DNA of 64,000 bases, from assembly GCF_009720525.1 (NCBI RefSeq), contig NZ_CP043930.1:6398001-6462000 (forward strand). The letters run 5' to 3'. Every line of letters starts with the position of its first letter. Position 1 is the first letter of the stretch. The position numbers and the translations under genes were made by a program. The DNA is from Gimesia benthica. GTDB lineage: Bacteria > Planctomycetota > Planctomycetia > Planctomycetales > Planctomycetaceae. The notes under the pieces were generated by a model. That model had not been told where the DNA came from. It saw only the letters and a program-made list of their open reading frames with translations, and did not search any database. Shown piece by piece: positions 48,014 to 61,872 of this stretch.

Positions 48014-49246
48014 TCAGGATGATGGAAACAGACGGCTCTTGATGGCATCTACTACCATTTGACGAAGCCACTTCTCCGGAATCGTTTTCTTGTTGGAACA
48101 GATCCCGGCCTTATGCCCTGGGCAAGCGTAAGACGTATATTTGCGTATTTCATTATCCTTCGTGACATATCGTCCTCCACTATTCGGAACCATAGACCTG
48201 TTGCAATGACCACAGCGAACCAGACCTGTCAATAAATAACTAAGTGTCATACCGGGAGCAGGCGCTTTGATTTGCTTGTCCGATTGCGGTGTGGTTTCAG
48301 CCAGTGCAGCTTTCCGTAACTGTCCCCGAGCTTTTCTTATTCGCCTAACTCGATCAAATACATCGTGTTCCACAATTGGCGTGCAATAGTCATCGATACA
48401 CAGCTGTTCTTCGACAGGGATCTTTTCAATGACTCGACAATCACTGATGATGTCTGTTGTGACCTTGGGCCAAACCATTTTTCCAATGTAAATTTCATTA
48501 TCAAGCCATGAACCTACAGTGGAACCATGAAACGGTTTTTGATGCTCTGACACTTCCTCATGATTATTGAGAAATTTGCATAAGCGGTCTTGTCCCCAAC
48601 CGGTCTCATCAGCCTTCCGGAATAGTAATACTATGGTCCTTGCCGTTTCAGGATCAGGAACGATAATACTGTAAGAGTGAGAATGACCATTGGCGTCTTC
48701 TTGACGGGTTTCGAGTTGATAACCAAATGGGGGTTTACCACCTGACCAGCGACCTTGCGAAATTGCATCCCGTTTACCTCTGAAAACACGATGAGCTTTT
48801 GTTTTTCCTTCTTCGACGGCGCGTATTTCTTCCATAGAATTGTAAATACGTCCTTGAGGAGTGTTGGGATCTCCAAAATAGGATTTTGCATCCAGGATCA
48901 ACACCCCATATTTGTTATACAAATCACGACGGATCTCTTTCAGGTCGTCCACTCTTCCAAATCGGTCAATATCATCAACCAGGATGACATCAGGACTGAT
49001 AACGCCTGATTTGATATCAAAAAGCATTTTCTGGTAACCAAGCCGTTTTCTGAGCAACCGCCCTGAAATACCATCGTCACGATAATCTGCCAGATGATTC
49101 CAATGGTTGTATCCACATCTTCCCAATGCAAGATCGATAGTAGTAAATTGCTGATCTGGACTTGAAGGGTTCTGGTTAGGGTCGCTCATACGACCGTAGC
49201 GAATGTAGTTGATTGATTTCCTGAAGTCATACTGTGATCTAATCAT
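48014..49246 (-). CDS. Large serine recombinase
   Basis: 410 residues from the ATG at 49246. The resolvase domain begins YIRYGRMSDPNQNPSSPDQQ with nucleophile Ser21 and includes DDIDRFGRVDDL. A recombinase domain (GKPPFGYQLETRQ) and a zinc ribbon (LVRCGHCNRSMVP, ACPGHKAGIC) follow. The long coiled coil expected after the ribbon is encoded by the next gene. Likely integration/excision enzyme of the island. Confidence 0.9.
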   Translation of the reverse strand: MIRSQYDFRKSINYIRYGRMSDPNQNPSSPDQQFTTIDLALGRCGYNHWNHLADYRDDGISGRLLRKRLGYQKMLFDIKSGVISPDVILVDDIDRFGRVDDLKEIRRDLYNKYGVLILDAKSYFGDPNTPQGRIYNSMEEIRAVEEGKTKAHRVFRGKRDAISQGRWSGGKPPFGYQLETRQEDANGHSHSYSIIVPDPETARTIVLLFRKADETGWGQDRLCKFLNNHEEVSEHQKPFHGSTVGSWLDNEIYIGKMVWPKVTTDIISDCRVIEKIPVEEQLCIDDYCTPIVEHDVFDRVRRIRKARGQLRKAALAETTPQSDKQIKAPAPGMTLSYLLTGLVRCGHCNRSMVPNSGGRYVTKDNEIRKYTSYACPGHKAGICSNKKTIPEKWLRQMVVDAIKSRLFPSS

Positions 49247-49502
49247 AATCTTTTCCCTTTTGATTATGTTGTTCGATCTTTTGCCATAAATCTCTGGCAA
49301 TTGATCTGGCGATAAATTTGACTAACCTCTGATGTCGTCTTTTTCTTACCTCTGTCGCTAATAGGACCTGCTGGTCAGGTGAAAGACCAGTCGGAAAAGG
49401 AAACTCTCCTTCAGCGACCAGGTTTGCCACTCTGTCCAGCTTTTCTGGAGTTGAAAGTAGATCAGCATTATGGTTGGTCGGTTTGTAAATAGAGTCACTC
49501 AT
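49239..49502 (-). CDS. Small recombinase-operon protein
   Basis: 87 residues. The start at 49502 has AAGGAG upstream and the gene overlaps the serine recombinase start by 8 nt. Contains PEKLDRVANLVAEGEFPFP and ATEVRKRRHQRLVKFIARS, a basic helical C-terminal half. May be a directionality factor or regulator; no family recognised. Confidence 0.55.
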   Translation of the reverse strand: MSDSIYKPTNHNADLLSTPEKLDRVANLVAEGEFPFPTGLSPDQQVLLATEVRKRRHQRLVKFIARSIARDLWQKIEQHNQKGKDYD

Positions 49503-49987: not shown

Positions 49988-50752
49988 TCAAAAAATGTGT
50001 ATTTGGGATGAATCCAATTTGAGAATATAGGTCTTGCTCTCCCTGCCTTTTTGCACCATTTTCCAGAGTGTGACAGGAAGTTGTTTTTTTAATCGGTTCC
50101 AGGCAGTTCCCATCGCTGAACCAGACACATCAGCATCAGGATATAAATCTATTTCTCCGACGCAGGAATGTCTTCTTGCATTTTGGCCTAACAAGAGCAA
50201 TAACTCCCATAATTTCCCCTTCATCCCATTTAGGATGACTCTCTTTTCCCAGTATGCTTTTCCCTCGGTAGTAATTAACACTAAACCGCCGGTCGCGATT
50301 GCTTCTTCTACGGCATCAGTCCGCTGTTCATCTTTCCCGTATAGATCTTTCAACTCTCCCAAAGCATGGGCAATCCGGTCTGTTGTTTCTTTATTCAGGA
50401 ATGCAGTCAGCCTGTTTCTAATAGAATCAATTTCGTGGTTCAGTAATTTATCAGGGAGTGATAGCCAGCGCAGTTCAGGTTTCAGTCCAAAAGCGGCGTA
50501 GATTTGAGTAAGTATGATCGCTGAGTTGATTAAACGATTCTTTTTCCCGCTTTTTAACAGATGTTGACATTCCGACCAGTCGGCATCCAGTTTCTTCCAC
50601 TCGTTTTCAAGTTGATCGACTAATTGTTGATAGGGGCGTCCTGTTGCTTTGATGGCTTTTTTAATCATGCCTCTTGCTTTAAACAAAAGTTCATACCATT
50701 GCCGGGTCCGTTCCAGTAAACAGCGGACGATATAATTTCCCACAGGATCCAA
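49988..50752 (-). CDS. Unknown protein with winged-helix-like C-terminus
   Basis: 254 residues, TTG start at 50752 (a GTG at 50743 is also possible). Helical N-terminal part with basic stretches (KSGKKNRLINSAI). The C-terminal part (GKLWELLLLLGQNARRHSC, AMGTAWNRLKKQL, ESKTYILKL) has the look of a winged-helix DNA-binding domain. Two genes of this strand pair lie between sites A and B, with 17 nt between them. Family unknown. Confidence 0.5.
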   Translation of the reverse strand: MDPVGNYIVRCLLERTRQWYELLFKARGMIKKAIKATGRPYQQLVDQLENEWKKLDADWSECQHLLKSGKKNRLINSAIILTQIYAAFGLKPELRWLSLPDKLLNHEIDSIRNRLTAFLNKETTDRIAHALGELKDLYGKDEQRTDAVEEAIATGGLVLITTEGKAYWEKRVILNGMKGKLWELLLLLGQNARRHSCVGEIDLYPDADVSGSAMGTAWNRLKKQLPVTLWKMVQKGRESKTYILKLDSSQIHIF

Positions 50753-50769
50753 CTCATAATTAAATGCAA

Positions 50770-51315
50770 TTATAAGTCCACCACGTTGGACTTTTTTCCA
50801 TCAACATCCTTAGAGAATTCCTGTACTGGGCCAAAATAATCTGAGCTGTTTACTAAGGGTAAGTCGCTGATTTGAGACAGATATTCAACTTGGGACAAGA
50901 CAATTTCTAAATCATTGGATTTACCAATTATTCTTTTCAAAGAAGTCGTCCCTCCAGCAGTTATCTCGACAGTCTCTTCGCTAACGTAGTCTCGGGAAGG
51001 ATTCTGGTCCTCCAGGTTTTTACCAACCAGTTCTTCCTTTCTTAACTGTGATAAGGTTTTAGCACATTTCAGGATGCCCTGTTCCAGCGAATCGATCAGT
51101 TGACGTTCCGGTGTGTCTGCTCCGGGATTCAACGCAATCAGTGGCCAGTTTGCATATTCTTGAAACCTTAGACGTTGGCTATATTCTTCAACAGCAGGAC
51201 AGGCGTCATTCCTGAGCCAGGCCAGAAGTTTTTCCCTGGGAAAGTTAAACCTAGGTATATCCGCGTCCGGAAGTATATCCTGATATCTACGTACTGCCAG
51301 TTTCCAAGAGTCCAT
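50770..51315 (-). CDS. Unknown protein of the recombinase module
   Basis: 181 residues, mostly helical and acidic toward the end. RRYQDILPDADIPRFNFP and LLAWLRNDACPAVEEYSQR are the most distinctive stretches. Starts just below site B, divergent from the tyrosine recombinase gene. No family recognised. Confidence 0.5.
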   Translation of the reverse strand: MDSWKLAVRRYQDILPDADIPRFNFPREKLLAWLRNDACPAVEEYSQRLRFQEYANWPLIALNPGADTPERQLIDSLEQGILKCAKTLSQLRKEELVGKNLEDQNPSRDYVSEETVEITAGGTTSLKRIIGKSNDLEIVLSQVEYLSQISDLPLVNSSDYFGPVQEFSKDVDGKKSNVVDL

Positions 51316-51413: not shown

Positions 51414-51500
51414 GCCAATTTTTAAGCTGATCCCGACTGATGGGTTTCATTGGAAGAAACCTGTTCAATATCAAAATTCAAGGGCAGTTTAAAGACACGT

Positions 51501-53051
51501 ATGATGGTTCGTAAAAAAGACGACATCCAACCAGAAGACTTTTCCCAGAAACAGGTAGAAGCTGATACGAAAAGTTCGACCTGGTGTGAGAAATATAAAA
51601 CCAAGCATCGCTGGATTCGTATCGAGAAATTCCCGGACGGGATCGATCCACCTCAAAAGGTACGCATTTATAGACAAAACGACTACTTTCGGCTTCAGTT
51701 CTGGGACCCTGCTGCAAAGAAAAACCTCACAGAACGGGTCGACGGTGATCTGGTGACCGCTATCTTTCGCGCCCGGGAAATTGAGGAACGCCTCAAACAC
51801 TTCCGCTCATCTGGTCTGGGGAGAGGGAAACTGAAGCACCAGAGTCTTCTGGACCTCTATCAAAGTCACTTACAACGTCGAGCCGATGCCGGTGAAATCG
51901 CTCCGAAAACAGTCAGACGATACGCTTCAGCTCTGGAACATTATCATACTTTTATTCAACAACCACTGATAACGACGGCATACCCATCTATCACTAATGT
52001 CAATCGTGATTTGGTTTTACAGTTTCAAACATACTTAAAGAATTTGCAGGTTTCTTCCAATGGGCATCCCAACACGCAGAAGCAGACAATGTCCTCGGCT
52101 GATTACGTACTGGATGTGGTCCGGGGGATGTATATCTGGGCGGCCGACCCGGATCGTGGAAATCTGATGCCATCAGGCTTCCGAAATCCCTTTCAGGGAA
52201 AAGTTCGTCAGTCGGCTTCGGTTGCCCCTGATCTGTTCGGAGAGCCCGACATTACAATTCTGATGGTGGTTGATTTTTTGAAAAAGTGCGACAGCTACCA
52301 ACTTCACCTGTTTGTGTTATTGATTTTTTATGGTCTGAGGGCTTCGGAACCGTGCTTTCTTTTCCGAGAAAACCTGACTTCAGATGGATGGTTAAAGGTG
52401 ATTTGCCTACCTCAAATCAGTTATACGACAAAAGGCAGGCGTGATAAGAGGTTACCTTTGCTGGAACCGATCCGGGCGATTCTGGAGGGTGGCTCTGAAA
52501 ATACAGAAACAGGATTGTTGATTCGGCGTCGTGCTGTTTTTGAAGGTTCTGAACAGCCGCCTTTATTGGATCAATCGCTGGAGCAGTTAACAAAAGAATA
52601 TTCGCGCCGTTGTCAGAAGACTGCAAATCTCACTGCAGAGCAAGGAATGCAGATACGGGATCAGTTGCTCCACGACGCAGGTGGGATTAAATACGACCAT
52701 ATTGAGAATGAGTTTCATCGCCTGGCTGGCCAGCTATCCTGGCCAGCCAAGGCAACTCTCAAAGATTTCCGTCATCTATTCAGCACGGCCATGATGAATG
52801 CCGGGATGCCAGAATATTATCGGAAGTACTTGATGGGACATGCTGTCAGCAAGGCAGCAATTACCAATTACACCCATCTCGACCAGTTACGGGAACGTTA
52901 CCTGGAAGCCAGTCAACGACAGTTCCAGCCAATTATAGCTGCGGTAACAAAACGCAAAGCAGAACTGAAATCAGCGGCTGAAGCTTCAGTACGTTCTACA
53001 TTTCCGGAGATGGATCAGGCCCCAGGATCAACTCGCTTGCGAGCAGGCTGA
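51501..53051 (+). CDS. Tyrosine recombinase (phage-type integrase)
   Basis: 516 residues from the ATG at 51501 (a TTG at 51450 is the alternative). SAM-like N-terminal domain ([19 protein letters not shown]) then the catalytic domain: Arg280 in FYGLRASEP, Lys311 in [13 protein letters not shown], Arg424 in [10 protein letters not shown] with Lys in place of the usual box II His, His447 in LMGHAV and nucleophile Tyr457 in ITNYTH. The 3' end overlaps the convergent E1-like gene by 56 bp. Confidence 0.92.
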
Positions 53052-53682
53052 CGGTGATGTTCCGATCCAGGGGTAACATGCGTAGCCAGCGTGTGAACTG
53101 GTGCAGCATTAAGCCTGCAGCGATGTTAGCGGTGTAGATTGTACTTTGTGCTGTGCAGCGACCAGTTTGGGCTTCGGACTGGTGGAACAAAGTCGACTCA
53201 TAGTGATTGTCGGCGTTGTGGGCAGCCACTGAGAGAACACGAATCACTTCACCCAGCATACGGCCATCTACAAATAGCTGGCAGTGAGAGGATGCAGAAC
53301 GCCAGATCGCCGCTCGCGCAGAGATGGAATCCACACAACAGAAGACAGCCTCTCCCACAGGTAAAGTAGCACGATAACGATCAGGAGTCACCGTTACCTG
53401 AATTGATTCATCAAGCTCCTGAATGGATCTGGCTGTCGCGTCCACTTTGGCCTGCCCTAGATCCTGGCCCCGGTATCCCTGAGTCGTGATATTAGTAGAC
53501 TCCACACGATCAAAGTCAATCAGCTGAATCCGCGGTGTCCCGATTGCTGCCAGTTGCAAGGCCACCTGACGACCAATGGCTCCCACTCCAATAACAGTCG
53601 CCGTCAGCTGAGAAAGCCGTTCCGCCGGGATCAGGTCACTCTGTCTCTGGAAACGATTCGTAGTCACATTTAATGTAATCAA
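52996..53682 (-). CDS. E1-like ThiF-family adenylating enzyme
   Basis: 228 residues. It should adenylate the C-terminus of the ubiquitin-like protein encoded in the same cluster. Nucleotide-binding loop GVGAIG (32-37), [15 protein letters not shown] with Asp56 and Asn64, Lys79, and CVDSISAR with Asp118 and Arg123. Cys176 (TGRCTAQST) is the best candidate for a thioester Cys. No zinc CxxC pairs and no rhodanese domain. Starts with an ATGA overlap with the JAMM gene, so it is the last gene of the operon. Confidence 0.9.
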
Positions 53683-54350
53683 ATCTGTTCTCCTTTCAAT
53701 TCGTATTCAGCAAAGAGCCAGTCCTCTTCCCAGTCAAAGTCTGCGGCCCGTTCAAACTCAGACTGGAACAGGCGACGATTCTGTTGCGGATGCACGTGCG
53801 TTAAATATTCATCATCCCAACGTTCTGGATCGCATCCGGCAAATGTTTGAGAGTAATCCCGTTTCACTGAAATCTCGTATTCGGCCGTGGGACCCACATT
53901 AAATTTCAACCGGGCATATGTTCGCCCTGTCCGCGCCAGGATAAACATCACGGCCCAGTCGGATCGTCCAAAGACGCGATCAAAAGTTTCTTCATCAGTT
54001 TGACTCGGCAAGGGGCAATTTCCCGGATGCGTATGAATCCAGATTCGACCAAACTGCTCAGGACGCAGACCGGCATCCACTTGATCGTCAAAGAAATTGG
54101 CCACCGCCGCATCGTCGAAGGTCACATGGGCTAACGAGCAGGTCTGCTCCACAAGCTGCAGGTCCTGTACCAGTAGCAGATCGTCCTCAGTAGTAATCCC
54201 GAAGCCTCCGACTTCGGTGTTTCCATAATCACGCAGGTACAACAGTTTCGCCCAGGCAGTCGGGCTGAACCGCAGTTGCGGTAACCGGGATTGCTGCTGA
54301 GTCAGGGTTTTCCGGTAATTCTTCATTCGTTTCTTCGAGTTCTTCTGCAT
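53679..54350 (-). CDS. JAB/MPN metalloprotease (JAMM deubiquitinase-like)
   Basis: 223 residues from the ATG at 54350 (AAAGGTG upstream; 54326 is an alternative). The frame is open up to 54551 but that part lies over the E2-RING Cys region. Complete JAMM motif: Glu46 in NTEVGGFG, His106-Thr-His108, Ser116 and Asp119 in [14 protein letters not shown], the H-x-H-x7-S-x2-D zinc site. Expected to trim the modifier precursor or remove it from targets. The gene overlaps the E2-RING gene by over 100 nt. Confidence 0.9.
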
Positions 54351-55194
54351 CACAATCAGAGCACCTTTCATTTTCAAGTAAACAGCGTTGGCAACAGTCG
54401 GCACGACACTGTACGCACTGTTGCAGACAGGACGAACAGCACTGGCCGTGACAGCTATCGCAATACGACAAACACTCATGGCAAAATGGACAATCGCAGT
54501 CCAAACAGTCCTTGGCACACCCCGTGCAAAGTGTGATTTCACAGTTGTCACAGCGTGTCTGCTGGTTGGCTGCGATCACATCAGCGCACTCGGTACATTC
54601 AACGCTGTCCCAGTCACTGAGCGCCACATAGGGGCTGTCGGAGTTATAAGTTCGTAACAGGCTGGCCACCATCGTGAAAAAATCAAACAGCCGTCCCTGT
54701 TCCAGCGACCGGCGTATGACATGCCGTCCGTCTCCTTCACAAACCACATCCGACTGAACGTGTGGATGTGTGACACAGTCATTGGTAAACGCCGGATGGG
54801 GGTCCTTGGCGATCACCCGATACGGGGCCCCGTTATCCATTTTCAGATTTGCATAATTGAGATGAATCTCAAATGGTCCCAGATAGACGCCTTCCAGTTC
54901 AATTGGTTCAGTGCTGACGGAAATGCTTTGTTCACGGAGATCCAGTTGCAGCTCTCCGAATTCTTCTTCTATTGCCAGTAGTTCTGCATAGAGTTCTCGG
55001 ACAGAGGAATTCTGCTGCCGAGATGCATCAGACGACAATTCACCATGTAAAGTGGTCAGTTGCTGGATCAACTGGGTTACACCTGATTTCAGTTCTCGTT
55101 CCAGTTTTGATGCAGCCGAATCCCAGCCTCTGCGTTGTGCTTGTTGGCGTTTCCGTATCAATCGATCACAGTACCACCATGCCTGGAATGGCAT
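54229..55194 (-). CDS. E2-like domain fused to a Cys-rich RING/treble-clef domain
   Basis: 321 residues. A helical, probably coiled-coil N-terminus (10-90) is followed by an E2/UBC-like segment (about 100-190): beta-strands ending THPHV at 142-146, then candidate catalytic Cys152 in VVCEGDG, like the HPN..xCl motif of E2 enzymes, and a helix [14 protein letters not shown]. Residues 200-281 hold about 23 Cys, many as CxxC pairs, enough for more than one binuclear treble clef. An acidic tail ends it. The only ATG is at 55194 without a clear ribosome site; it overlaps the small upstream ORF, so coupled translation is likely. Confidence 0.8.
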
Positions 55195-55280
55195 TTCATA
55201 TAATGACGGGGGTCTTCAGATACCAGGCAGTGATGGATTCGACTGGCAGTTCGCCAGAGTCGTTTTCTTGGATGTTTCAT
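55158..55280 (-). CDS. Candidate 40-residue basic peptide upstream of E2-RING
   Basis: The ATG at 55280 has GGGAG 10 nt upstream and overlaps the E2-RING start by 37 nt in another frame. Encodes MKHPRKRLWRTASRIHH then a Cys/His-containing end. May be a leader that couples translation into E2-RING, or a real small protein. Confidence 0.35.
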   Translation of the reverse strand: MKHPRKRLWRTASRIHHCLVSEDPRHYMKCHSRHGGTVID

Positions 55281-55296
55281 AATTCACGTTCTCCCA

Positions 55297-55340
55297 TAAA
55301 ATAAAAACAGGCTGCCGGAACCGTGATCCCGACAACCTGC
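55297..55340 (-). terminator. Terminator-like hairpin between the modifier and E2-RING genes
   Basis: AGGTTGTCGG / CCGGCAGCCT stem of 10 bp with two G-U pairs, then TTTTTATTTT on the minus strand. Would lower transcription of E2-RING, JAMM and E1 genes relative to the modifier. Confidence 0.65.
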
Positions 55341-55370
55341 CAAAGACGAAACACTTAACTTCAGGGACAA

Positions 55371-55595
55371 CTAACTTATCGCCCCTTCAATCTTCGTCGG
55401 CGTTATGGAAATCCGGTCCCCGTCCTGCAACTGCTGGTCCGGAGGACAGGGCTGGCGATTCACGCGAATCAGGTAATCGCGGGCTGCCGCATCTCCCATC
55501 TTCTGTTCAAAGAGTTGTGCCACCGTGGTTCCTGCGGGGACATCGATATAATCAGCGAATCCGCCGCCATCGTTGTTGATCAATAAAAGTTTCAT
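55371..55595 (-). CDS. Beta-grasp ubiquitin-like modifier
   Basis: 74 residues, ThiS/MoaD/ubiquitin-like fold by pattern: [45 protein letters not shown] and [18 protein letters not shown]. Likely substrate of the E1, E2 and JAMM proteins of this cluster. The C-terminus lacks GG; a single Gly is followed by AIS, so the JAMM enzyme may need to remove three residues first, or a single Gly is used. Own good start; followed by a terminator-like hairpin. Confidence 0.8.
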
Positions 55596-55646
55596 AAAAG
55601 GCTTTCTGTTTTTGATTAAATTTTGTTAAGAACACACATTGATTGT

Positions 55647-55838
55647 TTATGTGAGCGGCCATCGTTTGCGACGTCGTTTCCTGCGGCGTGTATTACCTTT
55701 CACACCCCGTCGTCCCTTGATGCGACCAGAGTGCAGCGTTTGTCGCAGGGCTGATTGCGAATTCGATCGTGCACTGAGGTCCTCTGGGACAGTTCGACAG
55801 CATTCGCTCGTTTGAAGATCAGGCCACCACTGGTTCAT
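55647..55838 (-). CDS. Small Arg-rich protein
   Basis: 63 residues. The ATG at 55838 has AAGGGG 7 nt upstream and overlaps the previous gene by 20 nt. C-terminal half is very basic (GRIKGRRGVKGNTRRRKRRR). Could bind nucleic acid or serve as a Lys-containing conjugation target. Not recognised. Confidence 0.45.
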   Translation of the reverse strand: MNQWWPDLQTSECCRTVPEDLSARSNSQSALRQTLHSGRIKGRRGVKGNTRRRKRRRKRWPLT

Positions 55839-56034
55839 GGCGTGCCCCTTGTCGCTCAGAATTCAGTCGATTGGCTTCCAGTTCATCCCAGTCAATTACA
55901 TAGGGTCCCGACGTTTCGGAATCTGGATCAACCGTTTCATCGGGCTCCGCTAATAAAAAGCCCAGACGTTTCACGGTTGACATGCTTTCGCCGGTTGCCA
56001 GGGCAACGGCCCGATTCAATTCTGCCTGTTTCAT
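55819..56034 (-). CDS. Small conserved-looking protein
   Basis: 71 residues: MKQAELNRAVALATGES, STVKRLGFLLAEP, GPYVIDWDELEANRL. The first half looks like a short helix-turn-helix. A good ribosome site (AAGGAG) precedes it. First gene after an internal terminator-like hairpin. Confidence 0.6.
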   Translation of the reverse strand: MKQAELNRAVALATGESMSTVKRLGFLLAEPDETVDPDSETSGPYVIDWDELEANRLNSERQGARHEPVVA

Positions 56035-56066
56035 CAGTTGTCTCCTTTAATACGAAAATGTTTAAC

Positions 56067-56111
56067 AAAAAAAGCCCCAGCCATGCAGAGACGATTCTGC
56101 AAGACCGGGGC
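56067..56111 (-). terminator. Terminator-like hairpin inside the Ubl cluster
   Basis: GCCCC...GGGGC outer stem with inner CTGC/GCAG stem (56074-56111), followed on the minus strand by seven T. Separates the 82- and 71-residue genes. Confidence 0.7.
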
Positions 56112-56131
56112 GTACCGTTGTGAAAATCCAA

Positions 56132-56380
56132 TTACCCGAGGCTGGGGGAAAGCCAGTGCTGCTCCAGCCAGTCCATTTCGGCTTTCAGGGCAGCACTCCG
56201 CTGCACGAATGGTCCCAGTTTGGGACCGTCGACAGGGGACAGATCCACCAGCCACTGACCGGCTGCATCCGGTTCGACATACGAACCACGTGAGATGGCC
56301 AGTCGACCGAGGGTTGCCAGGTCAATGGCTTCCGAGTAAACGCAGTGCACCGTTCCCTGTGGCGAGATTAAAAGTTGCAT
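56132..56380 (-). CDS. Small conserved-looking protein of the Ubl cluster
   Basis: 82 residues. MQLLISPQGTVHCVYSEAID, LGRLAISRGSYVEPD, GPKLGPFVQRSAALKAE and WLEQHW. Compact alpha/beta pattern without catalytic signature. I recall similar small proteins beside this type of cluster but cannot name a function. Confidence 0.65.
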   Translation of the reverse strand: MQLLISPQGTVHCVYSEAIDLATLGRLAISRGSYVEPDAAGQWLVDLSPVDGPKLGPFVQRSAALKAEMDWLEQHWLSPSLG

Positions 56381-56390
56381 GTTGATTACC

Positions 56391-57332
56391 TCACTTGGGG
56401 GTTCGGATAATCTGACGACGCGGGCGGTCGATCAACAGACCATCCAGGGCTGCCTGAACTCCCGACAGCTCAGAGGCTACCTGTTGCCGGAGTGTGTCTC
56501 GTTTTCGCAATTCCTGGGGCTGGATGCCCTGCACAATCCCCTGACACTGCGCTACCAGCACATCCAGCTGCTCGTTGGAGCGCACATTCAAGGAACGGAA
56601 ACGCTCAAAGAACTCGTGCAGGTTGCCGATGGCGGAATCCCGAAAGACTTTGGGACGCCCATCAGCCTGACCACTCAAACGATCCGTCAGATGCGACACC
56701 AGCTGTGACAGTTCTCCCAGAAAGGCATCTTCGGCCAGCCTGACTGCCTCTTCAAACCGCGACTGCACCCGCTGGCATTCCTGCTCGTAGAGTTCCGGGT
56801 TGAGTTGCCTGAGGTAATCAGGCGGTTCGACGCTGGGAAAGTCCCAGGAAACTTCGAACAGACCGATCAGTGTCATGGGATAATCGTCGTCATTGAAGAG
56901 GCTTCCCAGACGCTCCCGGGCCGCTGACTTCAGGGACAGATATTGTTCATCCAACTGTGAGACAGCCTCGTTGAGCTCTTCCGTGAACTGGCGCATCTGC
57001 TCCTGAAAAGAATTCAGGGCATCCTGGCGCAGTAACCGTATCCCTGATTCCGGAAAAGGCAGGCTGATTGAAGTCCAGTACGAGCGCACCCGCTGACGGA
57101 CCGCATTCACGGCTCGGAAACGGGGATGTCCTGTATCCAGCAGTTTCTTGCCCGCACTCAGGAAGGTCCCTTCCGCACCAAACGATTCTGCAGCCTGGGT
57201 CTTCTGATCGCGTGTCAGTGACTTGCGTGTGCCGAACCATTCAAAACTGATACGCGTGGCACACATCGTTGATCGCAGCCGATCGATGGGATCGGTGCGG
57301 GTATTTACTTCTTCGATAGCAGTCATGGTCAT
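56391..57332 (-). CDS. Helical protein of unknown function next to the AAA+ ATPase
   Basis: 313 residues. AAGGAG lies 5 nt before the start. Predominantly helical, with FEWFGTRKSLTRDQKTQAAE near the N-terminus, a central coiled-coil-like region (FQEQMRQFTEELNEAVSQLD) and YPMTLIGLFEVSWDFPSVEPP. DUF3150-type proteins have a comparable make-up, but this is a guess. It starts 26 nt after the ATPase gene, so a shared complex is likely. Confidence 0.6.
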   Translation of the reverse strand: MTMTAIEEVNTRTDPIDRLRSTMCATRISFEWFGTRKSLTRDQKTQAAESFGAEGTFLSAGKKLLDTGHPRFRAVNAVRQRVRSYWTSISLPFPESGIRLLRQDALNSFQEQMRQFTEELNEAVSQLDEQYLSLKSAARERLGSLFNDDDYPMTLIGLFEVSWDFPSVEPPDYLRQLNPELYEQECQRVQSRFEEAVRLAEDAFLGELSQLVSHLTDRLSGQADGRPKVFRDSAIGNLHEFFERFRSLNVRSNEQLDVLVAQCQGIVQGIQPQELRKRDTLRQQVASELSGVQAALDGLLIDRPRRQIIRTPK

Positions 57333-57357
57333 ATTAGCTCCTTAAATAGAGTGTGGT

Positions 57358-58854
57358 TTAGTTTCTGTGAGGATCGCGTGAAAGATTCCGACGCGAACGC
57401 GAACCGGATCGCTCGTCATTGCTAAAAACGCCTGACAGTTCGGCAGACAGACAGCGTTTGCTGGCCCAACGTCTGAGACGCGCCACTGATTCGGCGGCCG
57501 TGACGGCCACAGGGACCACGTTTTCCGCGGCTTGAACTAAGGGCACATCAAGTAGTGCCGCCAGTCGACAGCAGGCCCGGATTTCCGAACCGGTCCAGTG
57601 CCGGTCGTCTGGCAAACGTTGATCGGACGTAAGCCCAAACAGATCACGGTACAGACGCCAGATAGCCTGCTTCTGTTCATCACCAGGTAAATCCAGAAAG
57701 AACAGCGCATCAAAGCGTTCAGCCCGCACAAACTCCGGCGGTAGTTTCGAAATATCGTTTGCAGTGCAAACTACAAACACGTCTGAAGTATGGTCGTTGA
57801 GCCAGCCCAGCAGTGTTCCCAGCATGCGGGTGGAGACACCGCTGTCAGACTGTCCGGAAGAGGCAGAGCCACTCAGCCCTTTTTCGACTTCATCGATGAA
57901 CAGGATGGCGGGCTGCATGGCATCGACGATCCGGAGGGCTCGTCGAGTTCGCTCCTCTGTTTGCCCGACCAGCGCGCCCATCAGAGCCCCGACGTCGAGT
58001 GTCAGCGTGGGACGTCCCGTTTCCCTGCCGAGTGCTTTGGCAAACGCGCTTTTACCGGTTCCCGGAACTCCCAGTAACAACACGCCTCTGGGACGAACAG
58101 GTGTCGCATCCTGGGTTCGGGGACGGAGCGCACGCAGACAGAAGGCTTTGAGGGCTTCCAGACCGCCCAGACCAGTAAACGATTCTAACCCCTGGTGCAA
58201 CGATAACAGGCCGCTTTTTAGCAACGTCTGGGATTTCAGTTCCAGTACGACCGAGGCTTCGATTCGGCCATGGCGTACCAGGGAGAGACTGAAAGCCCCT
58301 TCCGCTTCATAACGAGTCAGGCCCGAGGCAGCGTCCAGGACACGCTCCAACTCAGGTCCCTCCGGCAATTCTCCCGCTTCTGTGGCGATACTGCGGGCGA
58401 TTTCTAGCAGCTGACCCCGATCAGGAAGATCATGTTCCAGGCAGACGAACAGTTTTTCCAGTTCTGTCGGGATCTGGACCAGGCTGGAAAGAACAACAAT
58501 ATATGTCCGTGCCTGTTTTCCCAGATTGATCTGTTGTGTCAGCGCCTGAATGATTTCGGGGGAGTTGATGAACCGATGGAAATTCTTGAGGACCAGCAGC
58601 GTGGGGCGACCCGGATCGGCCTGACTACTCAGACTGTGAATGGCAGCCAGAGGATCGGGGAGCGATGTGTTGCCGTTATCGACAAGTTCCGTTCCCTGCA
58701 GTCCCCGGTCAATGTCCCAGGAGAGTAACCGCCAGTCTTCACTGTGGCAGAGCCGGGACATTTCCAGCAACGCCTCGTCGTGTTCGTGACTCTGAATCCA
58801 GATACCAGTAAAGCAGGCGCGTATGTTCTCAGTCAGTCGTTCGGATAGTAACAT
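57358..58854 (-). CDS. Ycf46-like AAA+ ATPase
   Basis: 498 residues. An N-terminal RecA-like or degenerate ATPase region (1-200; LLSWDIDRGLQG, LLVLKNFHRF) is followed by an AAA+ module: Walker A GVPGTGKS (262-269), Walker B ILFIDE (317-322), sensor CTAND (363-367) and an arginine finger region near 377-380 (PEFVRAERFD). A basic tail (GSRSRRNLSRD) ends it. This order matches cyanobacterial/plastid Ycf46, whose gene neighbours in some genomes include Ycf35, as here. Could unfold or extract conjugated substrates (inference). Confidence 0.85.
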   Translation of the reverse strand: MLLSERLTENIRACFTGIWIQSHEHDEALLEMSRLCHSEDWRLLSWDIDRGLQGTELVDNGNTSLPDPLAAIHSLSSQADPGRPTLLVLKNFHRFINSPEIIQALTQQINLGKQARTYIVVLSSLVQIPTELEKLFVCLEHDLPDRGQLLEIARSIATEAGELPEGPELERVLDAASGLTRYEAEGAFSLSLVRHGRIEASVVLELKSQTLLKSGLLSLHQGLESFTGLGGLEALKAFCLRALRPRTQDATPVRPRGVLLLGVPGTGKSAFAKALGRETGRPTLTLDVGALMGALVGQTEERTRRALRIVDAMQPAILFIDEVEKGLSGSASSGQSDSGVSTRMLGTLLGWLNDHTSDVFVVCTANDISKLPPEFVRAERFDALFFLDLPGDEQKQAIWRLYRDLFGLTSDQRLPDDRHWTGSEIRACCRLAALLDVPLVQAAENVVPVAVTAAESVARLRRWASKRCLSAELSGVFSNDERSGSRSRRNLSRDPHRN

Positions 58855-58899
58855 AGAAGTTTCCTTGATGGTTTGAAAAAAAGAAGGTGAGAAATGTGC

Positions 58900-59547
58900 T
58901 TAAGCGGTTTCCGCCAGTTGGCCGATCGTCTCCAGCCAGGAAATGATTTCCCCGTCCGGATCACGTTCCTGCAGCAGGGGAATTGTCATTGACTCGACGG
59001 CACTGGTATTGAGCCAGTGCTTTGCTCGATTCCTGAGCCGGACCCGGATTCGACGAGTCAGTTGTTTCCAGCTATAGTCAGCATGCCGGCTGTCGAATAT
59101 CCGCCGCGCGACATCCGAGGCCACACAATCATGGTCTCCGAATCCGAGAGTGATGTTGGCAACGGCCTGAATGGCACGGGGATGCAGGTAATTTTCCAGG
59201 CTCCGTTTCCGTGTCAGCACAGCATGACAACGGATTCGTTGATTGATCTGAGCAACAAACTCTATCCGTTGTTCCCTCTCAGGGGACATTTCTCCGTCAT
59301 AGAGATGGAATTCTGACAGTTGGAGCGGAGCCAGCCGCCTGAGCCAGGCCCGGGGATGGCCGCCGATAGGCAGGAAAATGAGTTCCTGGTCGCGTTCCAT
59401 GGCGGCCAGGTCAGGGAGTGTGGGATGTGCCGAATGCAGGAGCGTCGAGATGCGGGTCAGAAATTCAATATCGTGTGCCCCTTCAACGACGACCAGAATA
59501 CGTACCGGCTGAGGATCTTCGGGAATCGGGTCCGGCAAGACCTGCAT
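58900..59547 (-). CDS. TOPRIM-like protein (OLD/primase-type fold)
   Basis: 215 residues from the ATG at 59547. TOPRIM pattern: ILVVVEGAHDIEFL with Glu22, a Gly-Gly at 62-63, then HLYDGEMSPE with Asp84 and Glu86, followed by a conserved-looking RKRSLENYLHP. Similar domains occur in OLD nucleases and primases. The expected second Asp of DxD is replaced by Glu, so metal catalysis is uncertain. An ORF extension to 59685 overlaps the DUF2997 gene and is unlikely. Confidence 0.65.
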   Translation of the reverse strand: MQVLPDPIPEDPQPVRILVVVEGAHDIEFLTRISTLLHSAHPTLPDLAAMERDQELIFLPIGGHPRAWLRRLAPLQLSEFHLYDGEMSPEREQRIEFVAQINQRIRCHAVLTRKRSLENYLHPRAIQAVANITLGFGDHDCVASDVARRIFDSRHADYSWKQLTRRIRVRLRNRAKHWLNTSAVESMTIPLLQERDPDGEIISWLETIGQLAETA

Positions 59548-59564
59548 GTGTTGATTTGCGAAAG

Positions 59565-59759
59565 TTAATTCTCCTGTGTTAAATGGTTGGGTTGATGCTG
59601 GACACTCTGGTGGTACTCGGAGGTCAGCTGTTCTGAAGAGACCTTTCCCAGTGCCGCTTCCAGAAACCGGCTGGCGTCTTTGCACCGGGAGCCGGTAAAG
59701 CCGCGGGTTTCGATGCGGGACTGACCGTCGGTAGAAAAAATGATGTCGATGGTTTTCAA
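59565..59759 (-). CDS. DUF2997 protein
   Basis: 64 residues: IDIIFSTDGQSRIETRGFTG, CKDASRFLEAALGKV. The order IETxGFxGxxCxxASRFLExALG is the DUF2997 pattern. The start overlaps the DUF1257 stop by 4 nt (ATGA). In cyanobacteria DUF2997 and Ycf35 (DUF1257) neighbour each other; function unknown. Confidence 0.85.
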   Translation of the reverse strand: MKTIDIIFSTDGQSRIETRGFTGSRCKDASRFLEAALGKVSSEQLTSEYHQSVQHQPNHLTQEN

Positions 59760-60124
59760 TGGTCTGCTCCGATCTGAATGGTGAGTTTAATGGAACCGTC
59801 GCTCAACTGGTTTTCCAGGACAGAATGTCCCTTCCGGCGTGCCTCCAGACGGCATTTTTCCACCCCGTAAAATTGCAGTAGTCGATTGAGCTGAGCCGGT
59901 TCTCCCCAGCGTCCTTCAAAGTTATCGAATCGAACCTGCCCCTGCTCCACGTCAAACACGACAGGATACCGCCAGTCTGGTAGACGAACTGTGTATCCGG
60001 TGGCTTCCCCGCTAAACAGGGGAACGGTTTCGTGAATGGGTTCTCCCAGTTCGAGTCGACGGCAGGCTAGGCCCAGCGCTTCGGTGTCGCGGACCTCCGT
60101 TCGAATCGTGACAATGTGTGACAT
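59756..60124 (-). CDS. DUF1257 protein (Ycf35-like)
   Basis: 122 residues. SHIVTIRTEVRDTEALGLAC, TGYTVRLPDWRYPVVFDV, QVRFDNFEGRWGEPAQLNRL and YGVEKCRLEARRKGHSV match the Ycf35/DUF1257 pattern. Operon with DUF2997, TOPRIM and Ycf46-like genes. Function of the family unknown. Confidence 0.88.
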   Translation of the reverse strand: MSHIVTIRTEVRDTEALGLACRRLELGEPIHETVPLFSGEATGYTVRLPDWRYPVVFDVEQGQVRFDNFEGRWGEPAQLNRLLQFYGVEKCRLEARRKGHSVLENQLSDGSIKLTIQIGADH

Positions 60125-60125
60125 A

Positions 60126-60695
60126 TCAGTTTTCCTCTTCTGTAGGTGGGGTATCAGGTGAGTGGGGTAAATCCGTTAATCGGCGTTTGTCTGGCTTTGA
60201 TGTGGCAGATGGCATCAGACGTGGTTCTGCTGAGTCCAGATCCTCCAGCAGTAATTCTGTGATCTCATATTTGTCCGCTGGTTCAACCTTCTGCTGCAGT
60301 AACAGCCAGCAAATCAACAGGGGCAGCAGACTGACCACGACAAACGCCACCCTGGTGATCGCAGCCGCAATGATCGGATCTCGGTTTCTGCTGTCGACGA
60401 TTTCGCGGCGTTCTGCCTCCAGCTGATCCCGCTGGTGACCGATCTCGTTTCGCTCGGTTTGCATCTCGCGCTGCAGAGTGACCATTTCCTGTCTGGCGTT
60501 GGCGTCTGCTTCCACCAGTTCGCGTGAACCCGAGGCGACTTCCTGCTGCAGTTCCGACATCCGACGGTTTTGATCCGCCTGACGTTTCAGTTGCTGAGTG
60601 GCCAGTTCGGCAACACGGCTGTTTTCGTTTGAATTACAGCCGATGCTTGTCAGCAGGATCAGCGTCAGTGTGATGCGAAGCGTCCGTTTTTCCAT
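60126..60695 (-). CDS. Coiled-coil membrane protein with lipoprotein-like signal
   Basis: 189 residues. N-terminal LTLILLTSIGC lipobox (Cys20), a long coiled coil (about 30-105; RQEMVTLQREMQTERNEIG), a membrane segment AFVVVSLLPLLICWLLL and an acidic-proline tail. Might tether the complex to the membrane. One base separates it from DUF1257. Confidence 0.6.
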   Translation of the reverse strand: MEKRTLRITLTLILLTSIGCNSNENSRVAELATQQLKRQADQNRRMSELQQEVASGSRELVEADANARQEMVTLQREMQTERNEIGHQRDQLEAERREIVDSRNRDPIIAAAITRVAFVVVSLLPLLICWLLLQQKVEPADKYEITELLLEDLDSAEPRLMPSATSKPDKRRLTDLPHSPDTPPTEEEN

Positions 60696-60825
60696 TTGCC
60701 CTCCAGCGTTGAATCAGGTGTCTGAGAATTCCCTGTAGCGCCAGGCGCAACCGTCGTTCCTTGATAAAAGCGATGACGGACAGCAACAGGGCGACAGAGA
60801 CGAACGTTAAAACCATGTATTCCAA
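60634..60825 (-). CDS. Small membrane protein, first gene of the Ubl cluster
   Basis: About 63 residues. A TTG at 60825 has AAGGAG 6 nt upstream; the ATG at 60816 is the alternative. One membrane helix (VLTFVSVALLLSVIAFI) then a basic stretch (KERRLRLALQGILRHLIQRW). Overlaps the next gene by 62 nt. Confidence 0.5.
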   Translation of the reverse strand: MEYMVLTFVSVALLLSVIAFIKERRLRLALQGILRHLIQRWRANGKTDASHHTDADPADKHRL

Positions 60826-60868
60826 GCAATGCTCCTTTCTTTCTAATAAGGGGAACTGTGTGAAAAGC

Positions 60869-60905
60869 AAAACGCCCCGCATTCCAAAGTAATGCGAGGC
60901 GTTTT
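60869..60905. terminator. Bidirectional terminator/leader hairpin at the head of the Ubl cluster
   Basis: AAAACGCCCCGCATT / AATGCGAGGCGTTTT, 15-bp stem with one mismatch, 44 nt before the first start. It ends transcripts from either side, or acts as an attenuator for the cluster. Confidence 0.7.
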
Positions 60906-61557: not shown

Positions 61558-61872
61558 TTAGACCTCTGGTTCAGCAACCAGGACCACTCCCAGTCGGTCA
61601 GAGTCGTCAGTTTTTTCCTGACTGGCGGCTTCAGGAGTGTTAAACAGCTGGGGAGTCTTTACGCTGGCCGCATCATGCTGGCACACAGCATATCGCAGTC
61701 GCGCTGCCAGTAACTGCTGACGCAACCGCTGGATGTCTTCCTGACCCCATGTCGGCTCTATCTGGGGACTGCTAGCATAGACCTCGAACAGATTTGCATC
61801 TTCGAGATCCATTTCTTCGCACCAGAACTGCAGGGCAGCTCTGATTAACATGATTTCTTTTCTCGATAGCAT
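61558..61872 (-). CDS. Small hypothetical protein
   Basis: 104 residues with AAAGGAG upstream of the ATG. LSRKEIMLIRAALQFWCEEM and EDIQRLRQQLLAARLRYAVC; helical, no family recognised. Its stop lies 3 nt after the XRE fragment on the other strand. Confidence 0.5.
   Translation of the reverse strand: MLSRKEIMLIRAALQFWCEEMDLEDANLFEVYASSPQIEPTWGQEDIQRLRQQLLAARLRYAVCQHDAASVKTPQLFNTPEAASQEKTDDSDRLGVVLVAEPEV

Follow-up and report, generated by a model that had tools for sequence, protein, structure and literature searches.

What does a complete ubiquitin-like (Ubl) conjugation pathway do in a bacterium when it is encoded together with a Cdc48-like ATPase? The question is raised by a 64,000-nucleotide (nt) stretch of DNA from Gimesia benthica (hereafter the window; contig positions 6398001-6462000 of an 8.03-Mb single-contig genome), in which 13 minus-strand genes, from 60882 down to 52996, encode a Ubl pathway and an arm of genes around an AAA+ ATPase. 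The answer that we tentatively favour, at a little less than an even chance, is a mobile, complete Ubl conjugation system coupled to a Cdc48/Ycf46-like AAA+ machine acting on DNA-bound complexes. An earlier note, made from the letters of the window, had described tightly packed genes on one strand, and all the genes that it described were found there. The majority of the genes overlap or lie no more than about 45 nt apart, and wider gaps (97-223 nt) flank the h82/h71 and modifier genes. Six loci of the genome hold all 13 genes in the same order, with roughly 50-97% protein identity, and a seventh locus (L018) holds the arm only. In order from 60882, the genes of the window copy are as follows (aa, amino acids).

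60634..60882, minus strand: TM1, an 82-aa single-pass membrane protein (membrane call by eye), present in all six copies and at the arm-only locus
60126..60695, minus strand: TM2, 189 aa, with a lipobox-like start, a coiled coil and a C-terminal membrane segment (topology by eye)
59756..60124, minus strand: DUF1257/Ycf35-like protein, 122 aa (below the Pfam cut-off; named from context)
59565..59759, minus strand: DUF2997, 64 aa (Pfam, 7.3e-15)
58900..59685, minus strand: TOPRIM-like protein, start probably at 59547, optional among relatives (conserved residues)
57358..58854, minus strand: Cdc48-like and presumably Ycf46-like AAA+ ATPase, 498 aa (Pfam AAA, 2.7e-26)
56391..57332, minus strand: DUF3150-like protein, 313 aa (Foldseek, 6.6e-12)
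56132..56380, minus strand: h82, a small protein conserved in relatives
55819..56034, minus strand: h71, a small protein conserved in relatives
55371..55595, minus strand: ubiquitin-like modifier, 74 aa (ThiS family, 1.6e-5; C-terminal census)
54229..55194, minus strand: E2-zinc fusion with Cys152 and ten CxxC pairs, frameshifted near its start in the window copy
53679..54371, minus strand: JAMM/JAB protease, 230 aa from the ATG at 54371 that is probably its start, in an open frame extending to 54551 (PADLOC JAB, 1.6e-5; H-T-H-P..S..D)
52996..53682, minus strand: ThiF-type E1, 228 aa, with Cys174 (Pfam, 1.5e-24; invariant residues)

Active sites of the tagging cassette

The modifier, E2-zinc, JAMM and E1 genes make up the tagging cassette. 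When each protein was searched against Pfam, as the earlier note had proposed, the E1, modifier, DUF2997 and AAA proteins were matched, JAMM (18.3 bits, cut-off 25) and DUF1257 scored below their cut-offs, and no significant match was obtained for the E2, TOPRIM-like, DUF3150-like, h82 and h71 proteins. The modifier, E1 and JAMM named in that note are all present. The E1 has a single ThiF domain, and its GxGxxG motif and Cys174 are invariant in 28/28 sequences; the JAMM metal ligands are present in the window and conserved in 96/97. The HPH..C motif of the E2 was found in 102/106; the four exceptions are fragments or a false match rich in Cys, so the active sites that the note had asked to be compared among homologues are conserved in all three enzymes.

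The AlphaFold model of the E2 (pLDDT 91) places residues 61-197 among UBC enzymes, aligning with dozens of them at Z scores of 6.3-7.3 and a root-mean-square deviation of about 3.3-4.4 Å over 106-123 residues. The Z scores are modest, but UBC enzymes nearly fill the match list and the HPH..C motif agrees, so the E2 part is predicted to have the UBC fold. C-terminal to it, ten CxxC pairs form a regular array over 80 residues, with CxxC-x11-CxxC-x4-CxxC-x3-CxxC and a further six CxxC pairs, all Cys. This Cys-rich end had no Pfam match, in a region that the fold search scarcely covered. Of the E2-RING fusion described earlier, the E2 part therefore stands, whereas the RING is not established, since the array differs from C3HC4 RING spacing.

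In the census of modifier C-termini, 102/111 had the pattern P.K(I/V/L)(E/Q)GA, and three relatives had KIEGG. Thirteen of those 102 stop exactly at GA, and the rest extend by 1-48 residues with tails mostly unrelated in sequence. Near-perfect conservation up to G-A/G followed by a free tail is the pattern expected from protease maturation, and by analogy with the GG of ubiquitin the mature modifier probably ends in Gly or Ala; KIEG(A/G) is an unusual terminus for a modifier. In one subgroup (L055, L061, L064 and L066-L069) the long tails share a KG..WEPDN-like stretch after KIEGA, which may have a role of its own or overlap with another signal.

Compared with its 89%-identical paralogue in locus L019, the E2 gene of the window lacks one base near the start, so that a 321-aa protein could be made only from an internal ATG. 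Purifying selection was found on all genes between these two copies, with dN/dS from 0.017 (modifier) to 0.44 (TM1). In our judgement, intact copies are very likely competent for conjugation.

The AAA arm and its union with the cassette

The AAA+ ATPase and DUF2997 named in the earlier note are both firmly matched. The closest solved chains to the ATPase are VCP/Cdc48, and its P-loop and Walker B motif are kept in 49/49 relatives. DUF2997 reaches 55 bits against a Pfam gathering score of 24.1. The DUF1257 protein obtained 15.2 bits against a gathering score of 22.2, and its label is supported instead by its place, because the gene adjoins DUF2997 and a Manganitrophus plasmid carries consecutive genes annotated as AAA, DUF1257, DUF2997 and DUF3150. 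By fold, the 313-aa protein resembles the DUF3150 proteins of phages (TM about 0.7 to one annotated as DUF3150), and the DUF3150 sequence profile was not matched in the Pfam search. In the TOPRIM-like protein, E22, D26, D84 and R..ENY are conserved in 22 relatives.

Is this union of cassette and arm, singled out in the earlier note, peculiar to the window? AAA and DUF3150 genes were found upstream of the cassette in 42/74 loci with enough upstream sequence, and gene order, the test set beforehand for the proposal, is kept in dozens of loci (modifier-E2-JAMM-E1 in 84/92 loci with enough sequence). The E2 was found in 15/392 sampled genomes of the phylum, several of them in the same genus, and a survey scoring at most five candidates per genome found at least five copies in two of these genomes. 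Scanning GTDB contigs with the modifier profile yielded 138 relatives, of which 80 were kept, nearly all from Planctomycetota. Loci from metagenome-assembled genomes labelled Chloroflexota, Emcibacter and Actinomycetes were left out of the spread beyond the phylum; the Emcibacter-labelled locus sits within the clade of the window itself and is probably contamination.

The arm is commoner than the cassette, with DUF2997 in 59/392 genomes. On the DUF3150 tree, cassette presence needs up to 7 changes, an upper count because L122 is mislabelled on the tree (it has E2, JAMM and E1), and at least 3 are forced by well-supported branches. Cassette and arm have therefore been joined or separated repeatedly.

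Mobility of the cluster

The earlier note had also called the cluster mobile and joined to a recombinase module. The flanking genes of the window copy are as follows.

51450..53051, plus strand: tyrosine recombinase, convergent with E1 and overlapping its end (Pfam Phage_integrase, 1e-8)
49988..51315, minus strand: two family c3 genes between the recombinases, a position that they also hold in other loci
48014..49300, minus strand: large serine recombinase (Resolvase, 4e-15; Recombinase, 1.5e-12)
61558..61872, minus strand: 104-aa family c2 gene upstream of the cluster, common to 11 loci

Only six large serine recombinases (PF07508) are encoded in the genome, five of them within or no more than about 10 kb from five of the six clusters; the chance of at least five of six falling there is about 2e-8, with about 168 of 8027 kb counted as near. 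Across loci, serine recombinases were found in 29/67 cassette loci, 3/20 arm-only loci and 0/20 random regions (cassette loci versus random regions, Fisher p 9e-5), which bears out the claim, and the recombinase often lies directly upstream of the cluster on the same strand. Over at least 62 kb, most 2-kb bins show almost 100% identity between the L019 copy and its counterpart in another species (G238); the left edge of this stretch was not reached, and 10 kb within it are at 94-98%. Just beyond its right edge identity is 88-93%, and the arm-only locus has 90-96%, a difference that indicates recent transfer. The recombinase module of the window shares 78-84% DNA identity with that of L069, whereas the E1 genes share only 64%, indicating that modules exchange. 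An empty insertion site for the window copy was not found; its right flank has repeats and an insertion sequence. These results show that the cluster is mobile.

In L057, L094, L109 and L116, the genes directly upstream of the cluster are TniQ and, next to it, transposase-like and ATPase genes, which suggests carriage by a Tn7/Tn5053-like transposon. The G. benthica genome has seven DUF2997 genes and six E2 genes. One copy of the cluster (L017) is disrupted at two points: a serine-recombinase element sits in its DUF1257 gene, and its AAA gene holds an insert with a reverse-transcriptase-like gene. The element in the DUF1257 gene brings its own complete DUF1257-like gene (54% identical) and occurs in two species (L017:4656-7988 and L052:2112-5443). 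On the minus strand of the window, 44045-44182 matches the end of the E1 gene and is apparently what remains of another cluster copy. To the right of the window, beyond the upstream end of the cluster, 6466180-6474766 (L021:4180-12766) holds a CRISPR-Cas operon with a WYL regulator, Cas3, Cas5, Cas8, Cas7, Cas4 and Cas1, read by eye; L062/L131 and L158 likewise have Cas-like genes beside the cassette.

A clamp-like partner and phage relatives

With what else does the arm associate? In 14/17 arm-only planctomycete loci, a 415-517-aa protein is encoded directly after h71, and 5/7 tested members of this family match phrog_947, the profile of a phage DNA-polymerase processivity factor (best 6e-9). 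By sequence, the protein had no match in Pfam, PDB or INPHARED. The sliding-clamp-like gene also follows E1 in five cassette loci. One 5.5-Mb genome (G361) has seven arm copies with the clamp-like gene (L174-L180), and the E2 search gave no match in it.

At E<=1e-8, relatives of the AAA protein were found in 100 phage records, and at E<=1e-15 in 706 plasmid records, where few of the matches are full length; the plasmid search gave no E2 and no E1 match. In phages, homologues of the cassette or of E1 lie in regions for replication or packaging. The modifier is encoded on three IMG/VR contigs (L162, L163 and L164) that also have genes for terminase or a phage-type DNA polymerase; two have all four cassette genes in range, and the third ends at the locus edge. 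No modifier match was obtained in INPHARED phages. In crAss-like phages, E1 homologues adjoin a JAMM-motif protein within a primase/UDG/exonuclease stretch; this E1 matches the cluster E1 profile at 3e-33 and the JAMM protein weakly at 7e-4, and the candidate modifier and E2 were not significant by hhalign. In Xanthomonas and Erwinia jumbo phages, near topoisomerase genes, the E1 homologue lies beside an 892-aa protein (HPHM..LCLG, Cys-rich end), an E2 candidate with a marginal match (0.0026). Homology of phage cassette parts other than E1 is taken as a lead only.

Proposed working and alternative explanations

How would such a system work? JAMM would cut the tail off the modifier, leaving ...KIEG or KIEGA at its end. 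E1 would then adenylate the modifier and accept it on Cys174, from where it would move to Cys152 in the E2, and the zinc array of the E2 protein may serve as a built-in E3. JAMM may also strip the tag from substrates. The AAA ATPase and its DUF3150 partner would then extract tagged proteins from complexes, as Cdc48 does for ubiquitin, the likeliest substrates being complexes bound to DNA or engaged in replication, whether they belong to the host or to a mobile replicon. The clamp-like gene and the plasmid and phage replication neighbourhoods make DNA-associated processes at least as likely as defence. Several points weigh against this scheme: every biochemical step is predicted from genes, the zinc array departs from RING spacing, arm and cassette each occur without the other, the clamp-like label comes from a phage profile only, and the DNA link is drawn from neighbours, when mobile elements carry many unrelated genes.

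Is the cluster an anti-phage defence, as the earlier note had considered? On infection, proteins of the phage or the host would be tagged, and the AAA, TOPRIM-like and membrane proteins would act as effectors. Work cited in PMC13373217 reports conjugation systems of the Bil type as defences, the distribution is patchy and mobile, and a CRISPR-Cas-like operon, read by eye, adjoins the window copy. However, flank proteins showed no clear enrichment in PADLOC families over those of random regions of the same genomes (123 vs 123, E<=1e-10), the six paralogous copies have a highly conserved core, unlike a diversifying immune system, and phages too carry related E1s and cassettes. We regard defence as somewhat unlikely.

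The most novel of the readings, a bacterial PCNA-ubiquitin-Cdc48 axis on mobile elements, is speculative and on balance improbable. Here the AAA/DUF3150 machine would work with the clamp-like protein, the tagging cassette or both, tagging would control how replication complexes are put together on DNA or taken off it, for host or element, and phages would use related cassettes.

Tagging and the AAA machine might also serve the excision, replication or retention of serine-recombinase islands, the cluster being a selfish module of these elements. The concentration of the large serine recombinases of the genome at the clusters (5/6), their frequent place immediately upstream on the same strand, and the presence of the arm on plasmids and phages fit this, but many loci have no recombinase within reach, and the recombinase types vary (serine, tyrosine, TniQ-type), so that the cluster looks like cargo. 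We consider this explanation unlikely. Cellular protein quality control, in which the tag marks damaged proteins for AAA unfolding, would suit the Cdc48-like ATPase but is quite improbable for a mobile cluster that has no protease and is absent from most relatives (15/392 genomes have E2). A ThiS/MoaD-like sulfur-carrier pathway, to which the best scores of the modifier and E1 (ThiS and ThiF) point, is scarcely credible beside a conserved E2 HPH..C motif, a conserved JAMM protease, a modifier ending in GA rather than GG and no biosynthetic genes.

Comparison with known systems

With a Ubl, a ThiF-type E1, a catalytic-Cys E2 and a JAMM in one operon, the Gimesia cluster belongs to the general kind of bacterial E1/E2/JAB/Ubl systems. 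Prokaryotic Ubl/E1/E2/JAB operons of types 6a-6e were described by Iyer et al. 2006 (PMC1779556); the nearest, 6d, likewise has separate Ubl, JAB, E1 and E2 genes in highly mobile operons, whereas an E2 with an HPH motif and C-terminal zinc array and an AAA/DUF3150/DUF1257/DUF2997 arm are not given for these types in the accessible part of that paper. BilABCD, an ISG15-like defence, has Ubl, E1, E2 and JAMM in common with the Gimesia cluster. BilA has two Ubl domains, BilD two adenylation domains and BilB a CEHH motif (PMC11354881), whereas the Gimesia cluster has one 74-aa Ubl, one ThiF domain (228 aa) and HPH..C. The FtsH ternary systems (Kaur et al. 2020, PMC7159879) share Ubl, E1, E2, JAB and ATPases and have a RING-type component, but in them the Ubl is fused to the E2, with links to EAD1, vWA-MoxR/FtsH and caspase-like effectors. 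In Gimesia the Ubl and E2 are separate, and the Pfam search found no EAD1, vWA-MoxR or caspase-like domains.

The cyanobacterial duf2997-ycf35-fed7 cluster (PMC4284462) shares arm genes and has no Ubl cassette attached. Plasmid and phage AAA-DUF1257-DUF2997-DUF3150 cassettes likewise have the arm genes without a Ubl cassette in those examples. The Gimesia E1 scored 32.6 bits against a PRTRC_ThiF cut-off of 144.75, which places it outside PRTRC. Bacterial E1/E2/JAB/Ubl systems with treble-clef zinc domains were reportedly described by Burroughs in 2011 (prokaryotic RING/Ub) and Gong in 2025 (Bub operons), and Bub operons are said to occur often with CapW, CapH/CapP or CapK/CapS regulators. The features that appear to distinguish the Gimesia cluster are the Cdc48-like AAA/DUF3150 arm, the E2-zinc fusion, which those two accounts may already mention in planctomycetes, and the KIEG(A/G) end.

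Through the clamp-like partner and the relatives in phages, the system is tied to DNA processes, a connection absent from the published accounts compared. One operon combines E1, E2 and JAMM with a Cdc48-like ATPase, in six natural copies in one genome and also in related cultured genera, and makes the coupling of bacterial tagging to AAA-driven extraction directly testable. Its recurrence across the phylum, together with its phage relatives, makes it well suited to the question of what purpose ubiquitin-type systems serve in bacteria.

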